Part shown: one piece after another, positions 12,282 through 20,371 of the stretch | Layout: the number at the start of each line of letters is the position of its first letter | How positions within the stretch are numbered: the stretch's first letter is position 1 | Assembly: GCA_029883265.1 (NCBI GenBank) | Contig: JAOUJM010000018.1 | Coordinates: 1-39,414, forward strand | Origin: Gammaproteobacteria bacterium | Lineage (GTDB): Bacteria; Pseudomonadota; Gammaproteobacteria; S012-40 | Direction of reading: 5' to 3' | Length of the DNA: 39,414 nt | The notes under the pieces: generated by a model | Database searches by the model: none | What the model saw: the letters and a program-made list of their open reading frames with translations, nothing else | Told to the model about the DNA's origin: nothing | Program-made: the position numbers and the translations under genes

Positions 12282-13448
12282 TTACCAGCCAAAACGAATA
12301 ATATCACCTGGGTATAATTTAACTTTATCGACTTCGAGTTGGCCAATGGAAAATTGGGGTTGCACATTCTTAACTGCGATTGAAGCGACTGGATCTTGGT
12401 CAAACCCCAAAAGATACTGATTGCTGCGGTCTAAAATAGGTTTAGGTTTGAAACGATAGGCTGAAAGTACATCACCTACCCGCACTAGGGAAACACCTCC
12501 CGCATTAAAAAATATTTTTTTTCCCTCTACCTGAAGCACTCTTGCGAGAAAGGGTATTTGTAATAAATCGGATTGTACGAATTCGACTTGGCGTTTTAAG
12601 ATTCGTTCTAGTACCCGTCCAAAATTTGTTTGATAAAAATCCGCTTGAGAAAATAACGTTGTGTTAGGTTTCAAATATCCGGCATGATTGGCTTTTTCAC
12701 TAAAACGATGCTGAGCGATTCGAGCACCGGTAAATCCATCGTAAATAGTCAATTCGATTTCAACTTGCCTTGCCTTGCTAACCACATACTGTTTGTGTAC
12801 GCCAAGATCGCGGATAACACCATTTATGATTATTTGTGCGCCAAGGGTTTCGCTAAGATGATTGATTTGTTTTGCATAATCCGAGACTTGCGGGGTTACT
12901 TCTGGGATTAAATACGCTGTGGCATCAACTGCGATAAACTCGCCGGTCAACTCGAGGCGTCGCAATAATTCCCTAGGAAGGTCATGTTCGATATTCGGTA
13001 AATCATAAGTATGGGTGCGATTAATTATCTGAAATTGTAGTGCTGCGATTTTCTTGCGGTAACGTGCAGCAGGGTTGGGTTTGCGGATTTTATTGTGTGG
13101 AACAATTGCACGAATGCGTACGTGATAAGTATCGCCTGTTGTCCATTCATCTAGTATTTGCACGTCTTCAACTGTGCCAGCGGCGGAAACGCGTACACTG
13201 TCGATGATTAATACGTTTTCACTCACTGTGCTACTGGAGTCAACTTTTGCTTCGGTCTGTAGCATGGCTTGTTGTACAGCATTCTTGATTGCATGTTGTT
13301 TTGCTAATTGGGTTGCGCCATTAATGATTGCCGCACTGCCTTCGGTTTCGATGGTGCGTTCGGCAAATACTGTTGTGATAAATAAATTAAGACAAAAGAA
13401 ACCGGCAAACCAAAGTTTGCCGGAAAAGTTTTGCAGTGTTGTCGCCAT
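12282..13448 (-). CDS. flgT: Flagellar H-ring protein FlgT
   Basis: FlgT is a periplasmic protein that builds the H ring around the LP ring of Vibrio-type polar flagella and stabilises the basal body and the MotX/Y stator ring. The 388-residue product has a signal peptide (hydrophobic to about residue 28, cleavage near TVFA-ER), then ETEGSAAIINGATQLAKQHAIKNAVQQAML, typical of the FlgT N-domain. A middle domain (AALQFQIINRTHTYDLPNIEHDLPRELLRRLE) and a C-terminal beta domain ending YPGDIIRFGW follow. All three FlgT domains appear present. The ATG lies 2 bases after the flgP stop, so the pair is translationally coupled. No other flagellar gene is visible nearby. Confidence 0.85.
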   Translation of the reverse strand: MATTLQNFSGKLWFAGFFCLNLFITTVFAERTIETEGSAAIINGATQLAKQHAIKNAVQQAMLQTEAKVDSSSTVSENVLIIDSVRVSAAGTVEDVQILDEWTTGDTYHVRIRAIVPHNKIRKPNPAARYRKKIAALQFQIINRTHTYDLPNIEHDLPRELLRRLELTGEFIAVDATAYLIPEVTPQVSDYAKQINHLSETLGAQIIINGVIRDLGVHKQYVVSKARQVEIELTIYDGFTGARIAQHRFSEKANHAGYLKPNTTLFSQADFYQTNFGRVLERILKRQVEFVQSDLLQIPFLARVLQVEGKKIFFNAGGVSLVRVGDVLSAYRFKPKPILDRSNQYLLGFDQDPVASIAVKNVQPQFSIGQLEVDKVKLYPGDIIRFGW

Positions 13449-13450
13449 GT

Positions 13451-14203
13451 TTATTCGTTGTAATAGAAGTCGGAACTGATCATGCCGTTATTGGGTTTGT
13501 TGACCGGCATGAAAGCAGGATTTGGATCTCTATCGCTAATTTGTTCAATGGAAAGCTGTGGTTTAATTTGGGTGCCAACGGGAAGCATGGAGGCGCAGGG
13601 ATCACCGGGTTTCATGGCCGCATTTCGAATGGCGCCGACAAGAAAATCTTGACCAATGCGCATTTCAACAACGGTTTCATAAGTGCCATCTTCTTGAGAA
13701 TTCTCGGCTATGACACGAGCGCCGCGCAGATGAGTGTCCAAATAAACACGGAAACGATCCTTCTCGACAACCATGTCACCGATAGTGGTGCCACCCCAGA
13801 TTTGAACGCCATTCACGCGTTCAGCCAAACTGCGGTATGCGTCTATTTTTGCGGCTCGCATGGACATTAAGCGGCGTTGGGCTTCCGGGTAGAATGCTTT
13901 AGGTGGCGCGCCATAGCCGGTTACGCGTATGCGTATGGCCTCGGCTTTCTGGCCATTATTGTTTATGTATTGCAAGAGTTCCTTCTGTGCGTCAGTGCAT
14001 TCCTGTTCTCTAGTCTTTTCATCTTCTTTTTGCGAAACTTTTTGTGTGCTAAATGCGGTCTCTGCGTTTGTTTGAGCGCTTGCGCCAGAATTAGGATCGA
14101 ATTCCGCGTTGGCATTTTCGTTACTGGGTACAGTCGAGCAGGCGCAAAGCAAACTGAATACACCTGCAAGTATGTAAGCGTTGGCCGAACGTGAAATAGT
14201 CAT
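13451..14203 (-). CDS. flgP: FlgP/LPP20-family outer-membrane lipoprotein
   Basis: FlgP is an LPP20-family lipoprotein forming part of the outer-membrane-associated disk/H ring of polar flagella. From ATG 14203 the product is 250 residues. It begins MTISRSANAYILAGVFSLLCAC, a signal peptide with lipobox LLCAC. The core contains IRIRVTGYGAPPKAFYPEAQ, then RLMSMRAAKIDAYRSLAERVNGV, the LPP20 signature. AGGAG at 14210-14214 sits 6 bases before this ATG. An upstream in-frame ATG at 14269 would put the lipobox far from the N-terminus and would overlap the promoter, so it is rejected. It is followed at once by flgT. A sigma-54-type promoter lies about 60 bases upstream of the start. Confidence 0.85.
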   Translation of the reverse strand: MTISRSANAYILAGVFSLLCACSTVPSNENANAEFDPNSGASAQTNAETAFSTQKVSQKEDEKTREQECTDAQKELLQYINNNGQKAEAIRIRVTGYGAPPKAFYPEAQRRLMSMRAAKIDAYRSLAERVNGVQIWGGTTIGDMVVEKDRFRVYLDTHLRGARVIAENSQEDGTYETVVEMRIGQDFLVGAIRNAAMKPGDPCASMLPVGTQIKPQLSIEQISDRDPNPAFMPVNKPNNGMISSDFYYNE

Positions 14204-14209
14204 TATGAA

Positions 14210-14214
14210 CTCCT
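14210..14214 (-). promoter_or_regulatory. Ribosome binding site of flgP
   Basis: AGGAG on the minus strand lies 6 bases before ATG 14203. It decides the start in favour of the lipoprotein signal peptide over the longer open frame from 14269. Confidence 0.75.
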
Positions 14215-14264
14215 GGTAAAAATAGTTTGAAACGAATTCATCGTTTCCCAAGTGATTGTTAAAA

Positions 14265-14281
14265 AGCAAAAGCTAAGCCAA
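14265..14281 (-). promoter_or_regulatory. Sigma-54 (RpoN) -24/-12 promoter for flgP-flgT
   Basis: Read on the minus strand the site is TTGGCTTAGCTTTTGCT. It has the -24 element TTGGC and the -12 element TTGCT, with exactly 10 bases between the invariant GG and GC, matching the YTGGC...TTGCW consensus at its key positions. Transcription would start near 14254, leaving a leader of about 50 bases to the flgP ATG. RpoN control of middle flagellar genes is established for polar flagella of the Vibrio/Pseudomonas type. No activator site was identified. Confidence 0.65.
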
Positions 14282-18431: not shown

Positions 18432-18477
18432 AAAAAAAGAGGGAGAAAGTTCACATCCTTGTGAAACAGTCCCCCTC
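18432..18477 (-). terminator. Rho-independent terminator of the minus-strand gene at 18509
   Basis: On the minus strand GAGGG and CCCTC (18473-18477 with 18439-18443) enclose an inner stem TTCACA/TGTGAA with an AGGA loop. Seven T residues follow (18432-18438). It lies just past the stop of the uncharacterised 429-residue gene, between it and the convergent uvrD. Confidence 0.65.
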
Positions 18478-18487
18478 GTGTGGTAAC

Positions 18488-18505
18488 CGACATATCCGTA
18501 TGTCG
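18488..18505. repeat. Perfect hairpin between uvrD and the convergent gene
   Basis: CGACATA and TATGTCG form a 7-bp perfect stem around a TCCG loop, 4 bases beyond the minus-strand stop. On the plus strand it is followed by only a short TTGTT, so as a terminator for uvrD it would be weak. Confidence 0.45.
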
Positions 18506-18508
18506 TTG

Positions 18509-19798
18509 TTACATCTCTACATTGTTAACCATTGTGTCAATCAAGTCGGCTTCATCATGTTGCCTGTCCCCATCCTGATTTTGGTTCTGTTTTTCTTCTA
18601 AATCTCTTTTCTCTTTTTGTTCAACCATCGCGCTCAGAATGTCCGACACTCCTTCAAACGGATTGTTAAAAAAATCTGAATTTCGAGCAAAGTTCAGAGC
18701 TTCGAATAACTGTTGAAATATGCTTGGCGTATTTTCAATATTGGCTTCTGATTGAACCGCCGGAGGCACGACATCAGTTTGCTCCGATGCAGGCGCTTCA
18801 GTCGTGGATTTAGCATTAGGCTCTGTTAATGTTACTGTCTCATCATCATTTGATTGATTAGCGAGTGTTGCTGGAGACGGATTTGTTTGGGTGATTTCAT
18901 TATCATCGTCAGCGAGTGGTGCTTGGGTATAGGCAGCCATACGTGAATAGCGTTCTTCTATTTCATTAATAAAGGAAATGGCGGACAATGCACTGGTTTC
19001 ACTACCCAATAGTGATGCCTCCAAGCCATTCTCGTCAGCATCTGAGTTTGAAAGTGAATTACTGACATTGTCGAGTTTTTGCAATAAAGTTTGAATGTCG
19101 TTTAATTCTTGCTCGCTTAAGTCGCCTTCAACGCTAATATTGATTGAGCTTTGTAAGCTAAATTCGGCGTTAAATGCTTGGCCACCTTCACTCAAGCGTT
19201 GAGCACTTATCGATGTTTCTGTTGAACGGGAGATATTAATTTTTACGATATCGCCTTCTTTGGTTTTAATTTCAACCTCTGAAGAAAAACTTGCGGCATA
19301 GCTTTGAGACCCAGATATTTGATTCTCTGACATTCCCGCCATAAATTGTTTGGCTTTCTGCATAAGCTTGTTATGAATGTCCTGACCAAAATCAAACATA
19401 TTATTTTCTTGGCCTAGGGCGTTCATGGATGCGAAGGCACTGCCCAATCCATTTTGTATAGCGTTATCAACACTATTGAGTGTTTGTTCTTGCGAATTTG
19501 TTTGCTTAAATAATTGCTTTGTAGTTGTTAGCAATTGATTGTTGACCGTTTCTTCCGTGTCCATAGCGTAATGCATAGGTTTAAGATGGGGTTTGCTAAA
19601 TGGCACAAGATTTTGTAATTGATTAAGTATTCGGTTTTTTATTAATTCACGGCCACGTTGATGATCCAGTGACTGCATCGAAATTTTGTCATCATTATTA
19701 TGCTTATTTTCTGATTTATGAGAGCGAGCGCGATGGTCTAAATCCAGACGCGGGGATTTATCCCGGTCGAATATAGATTTTATATGATCAATGTTCAT
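18509..19798 (-). CDS. Uncharacterised protein under a sigma-28-like promoter
   Basis: I do not recognise this 429-residue protein with confidence. There is no signal peptide or membrane segment. The N-terminal 60 residues are charged and His-rich. The middle (about 165-245) looks beta-rich (EVEIKTKEGDIVKINISRST, SLQSSINISVEGDLSEQEL) and then has LNDIQTLLQKLDNVSNSL, somewhat like DUF5610 proteins. A low-complexity acidic/Thr/Ser/Pro linker follows (about 290-355), then a helical C-terminus and a highly charged tail (EKEKRDLEEKQNQNQDGD-like). This layout recalls secreted or scaffold-type flagellar proteins, but no FliK or FlgM signature is seen. AGGAAG precedes ATG 19798. Its own FliA-type promoter and terminator suggest a late flagellar regulon member. 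Confidence 0.6.
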   Translation of the reverse strand: MNIDHIKSIFDRDKSPRLDLDHRARSHKSENKHNNDDKISMQSLDHQRGRELIKNRILNQLQNLVPFSKPHLKPMHYAMDTEETVNNQLLTTTKQLFKQTNSQEQTLNSVDNAIQNGLGSAFASMNALGQENNMFDFGQDIHNKLMQKAKQFMAGMSENQISGSQSYAASFSSEVEIKTKEGDIVKINISRSTETSISAQRLSEGGQAFNAEFSLQSSINISVEGDLSEQELNDIQTLLQKLDNVSNSLSNSDADENGLEASLLGSETSALSAISFINEIEERYSRMAAYTQAPLADDDNEITQTNPSPATLANQSNDDETVTLTEPNAKSTTEAPASEQTDVVPPAVQSEANIENTPSIFQQLFEALNFARNSDFFNNPFEGVSDILSAMVEQKEKRDLEEKQNQNQDGDRQHDEADLIDTMVNNVEM

Positions 19799-19846
19799 AA
19801 TCGCTTCCTAGTTTAGATTTAGATTGGCTTTAAAATCTTATGAGCG

Positions 19847-19873
19847 TTTTCGACACGTTTTCAATTTTCTTTA
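19847..19873 (-). promoter_or_regulatory. Sigma-28 (FliA) type promoter
   Basis: On the minus strand the site reads TAAAGAAA, 11 bases, GTCGAAAA, against the FliA consensus TAAAGTTT-N11-GCCGATAA: 5 of 8 and 6 of 8 matches with exact spacing. It lies 49 bases upstream of ATG 19798, leaving a leader of about 40 bases. The surrounding DNA is A/T-rich, which raises the chance-match rate. Confidence 0.5.
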
Positions 19874-19912: not shown

Positions 19913-20371
19913 TTAAACTGAGGTTTTAATAGATTGGTCAGTGCAAAAATCCAACAATAGGGATAAATCGGGAATAATGGCGGATTGCCCATTAATACTG
20001 ACATAGCTCAATGCTATTTGATGGGTAGCCAGTGGTTGCAAATCTTGTTCGAGACTGTCGCTACTCGCTTGTACAAAATGTGGAATGTTACGGCTAAGCA
20101 AACCCAGGTAGTCAGCGTTACCACTGATGCTGGGAATGCGCAGGATAATAAGATTGCTACGATTGCTGTTAGATGCATACGCTTCCAGATTGCAAACTTT
20201 GATACGCCGCGTATGCCAGACAAATTCACCGCTAACGTGAGGATTTAAATCATTGCTAGGGTCAAGGATTTGTGGCGGAAGAATTTCAGCGATTGCTGTG
20301 TTGGGCAGCAATAGCTGAAATTCCTGAAAAGGTATTAAAACACAAGCAACCTTAGATTGATTATGAACCAT
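19913..20371 (-). CDS. chpC: ChpC-like CheW-domain protein
   Basis: This is a 152-residue CheW-like coupling protein at the end of the Pil-Chp cluster. The fold is seen in KVACVLIPFQEFQLLLPNTAIAEILPP at the N-terminus, a mid-segment with FVWHTRRIKVCNLEA, and AIIPDLSLLLDF near the end. It is weakly conserved, as is ChpC of Pseudomonas, an accessory CheW in twitching chemosensing. The start lies 8 bases after the chpA stop, so it is translated from the same message. Assignment as ChpC rests on domain plus position, since sequence alone cannot separate it from other divergent CheW proteins. Confidence 0.78.
   Translation of the reverse strand: MVHNQSKVACVLIPFQEFQLLLPNTAIAEILPPQILDPSNDLNPHVSGEFVWHTRRIKVCNLEAYASNSNRSNLIILRIPSISGNADYLGLLSRNIPHFVQASSDSLEQDLQPLATHQIALSYVSINGQSAIIPDLSLLLDFCTDQSIKTSV

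Follow-up and report, generated by a model that had tools for sequence, protein, structure and literature searches.

The locus and its gene product

The window, i.e., the whole stretch of 39,414 nucleotides analyzed here, carries on its minus strand an open reading frame for a protein of 429 amino acids (18509–19798), whose ATG start is preceded by GGAAG. Upstream lies the gene for a CheW-like protein in chpC position (19913–20371, minus strand), and beyond it follow a Hpt/CheA-type kinase and then a PilJ-domain receptor. On the downstream side, uvrD is convergent with the open reading frame, and the gap between the two is 87 nt. A sigma-28 (FliA) type promoter, TAAAGAAA-attgaaaacgt-GTCGAAAA with an N11 spacer, is located at 19847–19873 on the minus strand. 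From the end of this site (GTCGAAAA) to the ATG we counted 48 nt; the exact sigma-28 spacing proposed in the initial annotation was borne out, with a distance of 48 instead of 49 nt. Two hairpins follow the stop codon on the minus strand, one with a 7-bp stem and a CGGA loop (18488–18505), the other an intrinsic terminator (18432–18477; stem 18439–18477) with the stem GAGGGGGA...TCTCCCTC, an apical TTCACA-AGGA-TGTGAA and a run of seven T. A simple terminator scanner missed the latter, the stem of which is interrupted. The promoter and the hairpin plus T7 terminator had both been ascribed to this gene beforehand and were found again.

A flgT gene (12282–13448) and an LPP20-domain gene (13451–14269) are encoded on the minus strand 4–7 kb from the open reading frame. 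In the window they adjoin housekeeping genes, apart from the flagellar clusters on other contigs; flgT and an LPP20-type gene are also found near the homologue in two relatives (L014, L015).

The full-length structure model (mean pLDDT 53) has helices at residues 46–155, strands within 160–291, disorder at 292–358 and helices at 360–428. This agrees with the beta-rich middle, acidic linker and charged helical tail described earlier, and the signal peptide said to be missing was not evident by eye either. According to the model, a disordered N-terminus would precede a helical domain (residues about 45–156; 19331–19666, minus strand) that aligns with DUF5610, a stretch not reached by Pfam directly. 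The C-terminal domain (residues about 160–292; 18923–19321, minus strand) would consist of strands, two helices and a strand and contains the motif TKEGD...GDLSEQE. An acidic disordered linker (about 293–358) and a charged helical tail (359–429) would complete the product (18512–18922, minus strand). The full-length low-confidence model had no PDB match, and a PDB sequence search with a profile gave nothing below 0.1.

Long proteins of the DUF5610 family have the same order, i.e., a DUF5610 domain and then a second domain with the motif T-x-D-G-D-x-V...G-x-L-D-E-x-E. We modelled this second domain alone from the Marinagarivorans copy (L082) with 15 relatives and obtained three long strands, two helices and one strand at a pLDDT of 89.9. 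Against the PDB, the best Foldseek E of 8.9e-3 was weak, and the best Z, for a pilus usher barrel, was 5.7 (rmsd 4.1, 90 aligned), within the noise range. The structural matches, to capping protein, ushers and porins, were weak and scattered. We claim no new fold here; as modelled, the second domain has no clear PDB match.

Membership in the DUF5610 family

Pfam and NCBIfam gave nothing for the window protein; a line for DarT at E 0.069 was discarded as chance. DUF5610 itself was not hit up to E 1, and the protein is not a Pfam-defined member of DUF5610 (PF18433), the cut-off of 26.4 bits not being reached. Relatives scored 80.5 (L013), 19.7 (L016) and 17 bits (L014). We built a profile from 20 canonical proteins of the family, leaving out the window protein; it matched the latter with E 1.3e-21 over residues 26–397, and thus across both domains, and found no other open reading frame of the window below E 1. 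By its sequence, the window protein belongs to the two-domain DUF5610 family as a diverged member. Neither this membership nor the 3′ UTR hairpins with GGA loops, discussed below, appeared in the initial annotation. Canonical members of PF18433, a Pfam name that stands for function unknown, exceed the cut-off, and many have the same sigma-28 site as the window gene; the window protein differs from them in its lack of a direct Pfam match, with about 20% identity. Our literature search found no paper on DUF5610, and among the papers listed for the FliA regulon none dealt with the family.

Matches to the window protein were present in 8 of the 56 genomes searched, its own included, all 8 from the same taxonomic family. 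Since one of the other seven genomes has two copies, this amounts to nine window-type genes. With an E limit of 1, five of the nine proteins are matched by DUF5610, the best E being 1.7e-22, and DUF5610 is above the cut-off in L013 and in a second copy in the own genome. Among 369 genomes of the class, DUF5610 occurs in 26 and the family, as defined by the profile of long proteins, in 30. Among the named carriers are Psychrosphaera, Marisediminitalea, Aestuariibacter, Marinomonas and Marinagarivorans. A plasmid collection contained no match.

The second copy of the own genome (L044:1425–2567, G000:C100) is a canonical DUF5610 gene in which the second domain matches weakly, L102:1252–2604 (G247) contains the second domain without matching DUF5610 in Pfam, and L103 (G224), the open reading frame of which is over-extended, was detected with the family profile alone. 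Possibly, the second domain is a mobile module. One family member (L074, JACQXT010000083.1) sits outside Gammaproteobacteria in a MAG labelled Chitinivibrionia, which is a case of transfer or mis-binning.

Sigma-28 promoter and flagellar context

We scored promoters as TAAAGTTT-N10-12-GCCGATAA, with T given half weight at position 2 of the second box and a threshold of 21. The sigma-28 consensus was taken to be TAAAGTTT-N11-GCCGATAA, and a flagellin site of the same genome served as a check: the first flagellin of its cluster has TAAAGAAA-N11-GTCGAAAT about 130 nt before the ATG, with a score of 20. Several flagellins of relatives score 21–23. Most of the 21 flagellin loci examined, many of them cluster-internal, stayed below the threshold, which counts against the sigma-28 reading. 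None of 200 dinucleotide shuffles of the 250 nt of upstream DNA reached the score of the window site.

The initial annotation had regarded the gene as part of the late flagellar regulon, a reading that would have failed if orthologues lacked the −35/−10 pattern upstream; we looked for this pattern, and the reading withstood the check. Among the nine window-type genes, which are about 20% identical, eight score at least 21, every one with spacer 11; only L013 is below the threshold. In the family, 27 of 48 genes reach 21 with spacer 11, compared with 6 of 363 neighbor genes of the same loci; a Fisher value for this enrichment overstates independence because the family genes are related. No more than 4 of the 48 reach it at any spacer of 4–10 or 12–19, and none on the reverse strand. 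The first possible start codon was used throughout and the scan was permitted 75 nt within the nominal open reading frame, so some sites lie inside it. The 48 genes exclude L069–L072 (the same genes as G009, G011, G005 and G001), L074 and L083 (no upstream DNA), the broken copy of G326, the DUF5610 matches in G112 and G327 missed by the family profile, and repeat loci of the same gene.

The 21 family genes below the threshold count against a FliA-regulon reading. Among them is the second DUF5610 gene of the own genome (L044), which scores 16. A script put 12 genes into a "short" class, L044 included despite its 380 amino acids, and 8 of the 12 are below the threshold. Also, a strict sigma-28 pattern had 11 matches in the own genome, several inside open reading frames, compared with 4 for the reversed control, and therefore this pattern alone is no regulon predictor here. 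We nevertheless consider, on sequence grounds, that the window promoter is not a chance pattern and that the gene, with a sigma-28 type promoter conserved upstream, very likely belongs to the FliA regulon. The late flagellar assignment made before is strongly supported by this conservation.

The position beside the chpC-type gene allows another reading, in which the window gene would belong to the type IV pilus chemosensory (Chp) system and be read through from chpC. It lies 114 nt behind chpC on the same strand, the simple scanner lists no minus-strand terminator-like site between them, and in L016 and L017 the gene is beside chpC as well. However, the window-type gene has its own conserved promoter, and only 3 of 9 window-type genes adjoin a Chp cluster. 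In L010, L012, L014 and L015 the same interval lacks a chpA-pilJ-chpC cluster and has the gene at or near its uvrD side, in L011 and L013 the gene is located elsewhere, and the locations of the wider family are widely scattered. The Chp link is therefore incidental; we rejected membership in the Chp system for lack of linkage and regard it, with read-through from chpC, as highly improbable. The link between swimming and twitching raised as a possibility before was not supported.

We also compared the family with the distribution of flagellar genes. FliA is above the cut-off in 25 of 30 family-bearing genomes and in 208 of 369 genomes overall (Fisher p 0.002). Three of the five family-bearing genomes without FliA have FliF (G224, G231, G243) and two do not (G064, G326). 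A stop interrupts the family copy of G326. The DUF5610 gene of G064 is short, and the lack of FliF in this genome counts against a flagellar reading. FliF was left out of the comparison because it was checked in these five and in six same-family genomes only. Co-occurrence within the taxonomic family is uninformative, FliA being present in all 13 of its genomes. The own genome has FliA, FliF and nine flagellin matches. Eight of the nine lie in one tandem cluster (L161/L162, G000:C482). Two FliA-type sigma factors are encoded in this genome (L066:8122–8853, G000:C282; L067:686–1414, G000:C469), one in an apparent flhA-flhF-flhG-fliA-che operon and one as an orphan near leu-type genes, with neighbors named by eye. 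Two FliA matches above the cut-off occur in 11 of the 13 genomes of the taxonomic family.

The window protein contains neither Cys nor Trp. In 29 family proteins (9,500 amino acids) we counted 3 Cys and 11 Trp, compared with 1.02% Cys and 1.13% Trp in 302 neighbors; Cys is absent from 42 of 48 family proteins, and 11 of the 16 Cys of this set sit in the over-extended L103 open reading frame. The flagellins and the FliD-like and FlaG-like proteins of the own genome, named by eye, are nearly free of Cys and Trp too, and the scarcity of these residues suggests export. With its disordered N-terminus, lack of a signal peptide and scarce Cys and Trp, the window protein has the traits of an export substrate. 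These traits are non-specific because FliF, FliG and FliH of the own genome, which are not exported, are also without Cys.

Taken as a whole, the window gene is probably a stand-alone late (class 3) flagellar-regulon gene of the DUF5610 family, with a product that may be a client or accessory of the export path, and its Chp neighborhood is accidental. After completion of the hook-basal body, FliA-RNA polymerase would start at the gene's own sigma-28 promoter and stop at its own terminator. Like flagellin, FliD and FlaG, the product would be handled by the flagellar export path, either leaving through it or staying behind as a partner of exported proteins; this part of the reading we hold tentatively, at somewhat below an even chance. 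The promoter, the family membership, the conservation of the promoter with the family and the link to flagellated genomes are all shown by sequence. The window gene shares with late FliA genes of the flagellin/FliD/FlaG class its own sigma-28 promoter, near-zero Cys and Trp and occurrence with flagella. Unlike them, its protein has no flagellar Pfam match and, for the second domain, no clear PDB match, and the gene lies outside a flagellar operon.

Alternatively, the product could be a cytoplasmic regulator of the flagellar programme, of the anti-sigma or chaperone type, and neither exported nor structural. A net charge of −34 and the disordered ends fit this role, as does a V-x-L-S stretch in the N-termini of several relatives that may resemble FlgM. 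No FlgM, FliS, FliT or FlgN appeared among the Pfam matches listed (for window-type proteins, the best 25 of 28), and we regard such a regulator as rather unlikely. With a late flagellar-regulon gene as the preferred reading, DUF5610, an uncharacterized Pfam family, would gain a testable home in the FliA regulon of swimming Gammaproteobacteria of several orders. When they lie outside flagellar operons, late flagellar genes of unknown function can readily be overlooked, and the window gene brings its own promoter evidence.

GGA hairpins at the 3′ end

The 97-nt 3′ stretch folds at −27.9 kcal/mol, its shuffles at −17.5 on average (z −3.8), and no shuffle out of 200 was as stable. The apical part of the terminator contains TCACAAGGATGTGA (18451–18464, minus strand), a candidate CsrA/RsmA-type site that is close to ideal, with the 12-mer core CACARGGAYGTG. 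A CsrA-binding motif of the CANGGANG type, as quoted in PMC4894983, with GGA in a hairpin loop is present. Across the 39 kb window, the minus strand has no hairpins with NGGA/ANGGAN loops and stems of at least 6 besides the two in this 3′ UTR. Shuffling the 3′ UTR 5000 times never produced two such hairpins, and of 430 3′ regions of 100 nt, the window gene's included, one contained two GGA-loop hairpins.

The 12-mer CACARGGAYGTG was found in 8 of 113 loci, all directly behind four distinct family genes (window, G009, G007, G003a), i.e., behind four of the eight window-type genes with 3′ DNA. It is absent behind G001, G003b, G005 and G008, and G011 has no 3′ DNA. The longer 14-mer TCACARGGAYGTGA occurs at four places in 11 genomes, three of them behind a window-type gene (G000, G009, G003) and the fourth in G000, 5 nt before an ATG; the reversed control pattern gave 0. 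Of 8 genomes, all have CsrA and none has FliW. Moreover, the first clustered flagellin of the own genome (L161/L162) carries a ccccaAGGAtgggg hairpin in its leader.

These observations are consistent with a transcript of dual function, in which the mRNA or a cut 3′ fragment would bind CsrA via the two GGA-loop hairpins, and late flagellar transcription would titrate CsrA. A precedent is the Campylobacter jejuni flaA mRNA, a dual-function CsrA antagonist the leader of which titrates CsrA with two GGA stem-loops (PMC4894983). Like the window gene, it is a sigma-28 transcript with two such stem-loops; the flaA loops, however, belong to the 5′ leader of a flagellin and occur along with FliW, whereas those of the window are in the 3′ UTR of a different gene, FliW is absent and the site is predicted from sequence. 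RsmZ/CsrB-type RNAs share the GGA-in-loop hairpins; unlike these, the window element is in the terminator of a coding transcript, has two sites only and has no Rfam match. Rfam found no known Csr/Rsm RNA around the gene, its two matches lying far below gathering scores. Against a dual function, the element was noticed post hoc, is kept in three of the seven relatives' genes with 3′ DNA and missing from four, and occurs in none of the wider family. The distance of 39 nt from GGA to GGA, start to start, exceeds the optimum of 18 nt given in PMC4894983. Among the papers listed on CsrA sponges, that on flaA appeared but nothing on the window gene.

Nearly palindromic and placed between two convergent genes, the element may be a plain two-way terminator, which accounts for part of these observations. 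We give an even chance to the reading that the hairpins are a mere intrinsic terminator for the window gene and uvrD, with accidental GGA loops. A T-run follows the stem on the strand of the window gene and an A-run on the opposite strand, and the 87-nt gap to the convergent uvrD fits as well. However, conservation in G009, G007 and G003a extends beyond the stem to the loop and closing bases, and G003a sits elsewhere in its genome.

A dual-function transcript is compatible with the late flagellar gene that we prefer and adds an RNA role to it. We regard such a transcript, and with it the predicted CsrA binding, as speculative and rather unlikely. If CsrA did bind the 3′ hairpins, the regulator of swimming and settling would receive feedback from the tail of a flagellar mRNA in bacteria without FliW. 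By analogy, the sigma-28 transcript of an unstudied flagellar-regulon protein, one domain of which lacks a clear match to solved structures, would then end in a putative CsrA-binding terminator, its 3′ UTR would sponge CsrA, and the whole would correspond, in Gammaproteobacteria and without FliW, to the Campylobacter flaA circuit; we think this complete picture unlikely, at about one chance in four.

The remaining TCACARGGAYGTGA of the own genome, at L117:1501–1514 (G000:C374), is the only other one there and precedes the gene of a 414-amino acid protein without Pfam match. Just before an ATG is a usual place for a CsrA site. From its sequence, this gene is a probable CsrA target.
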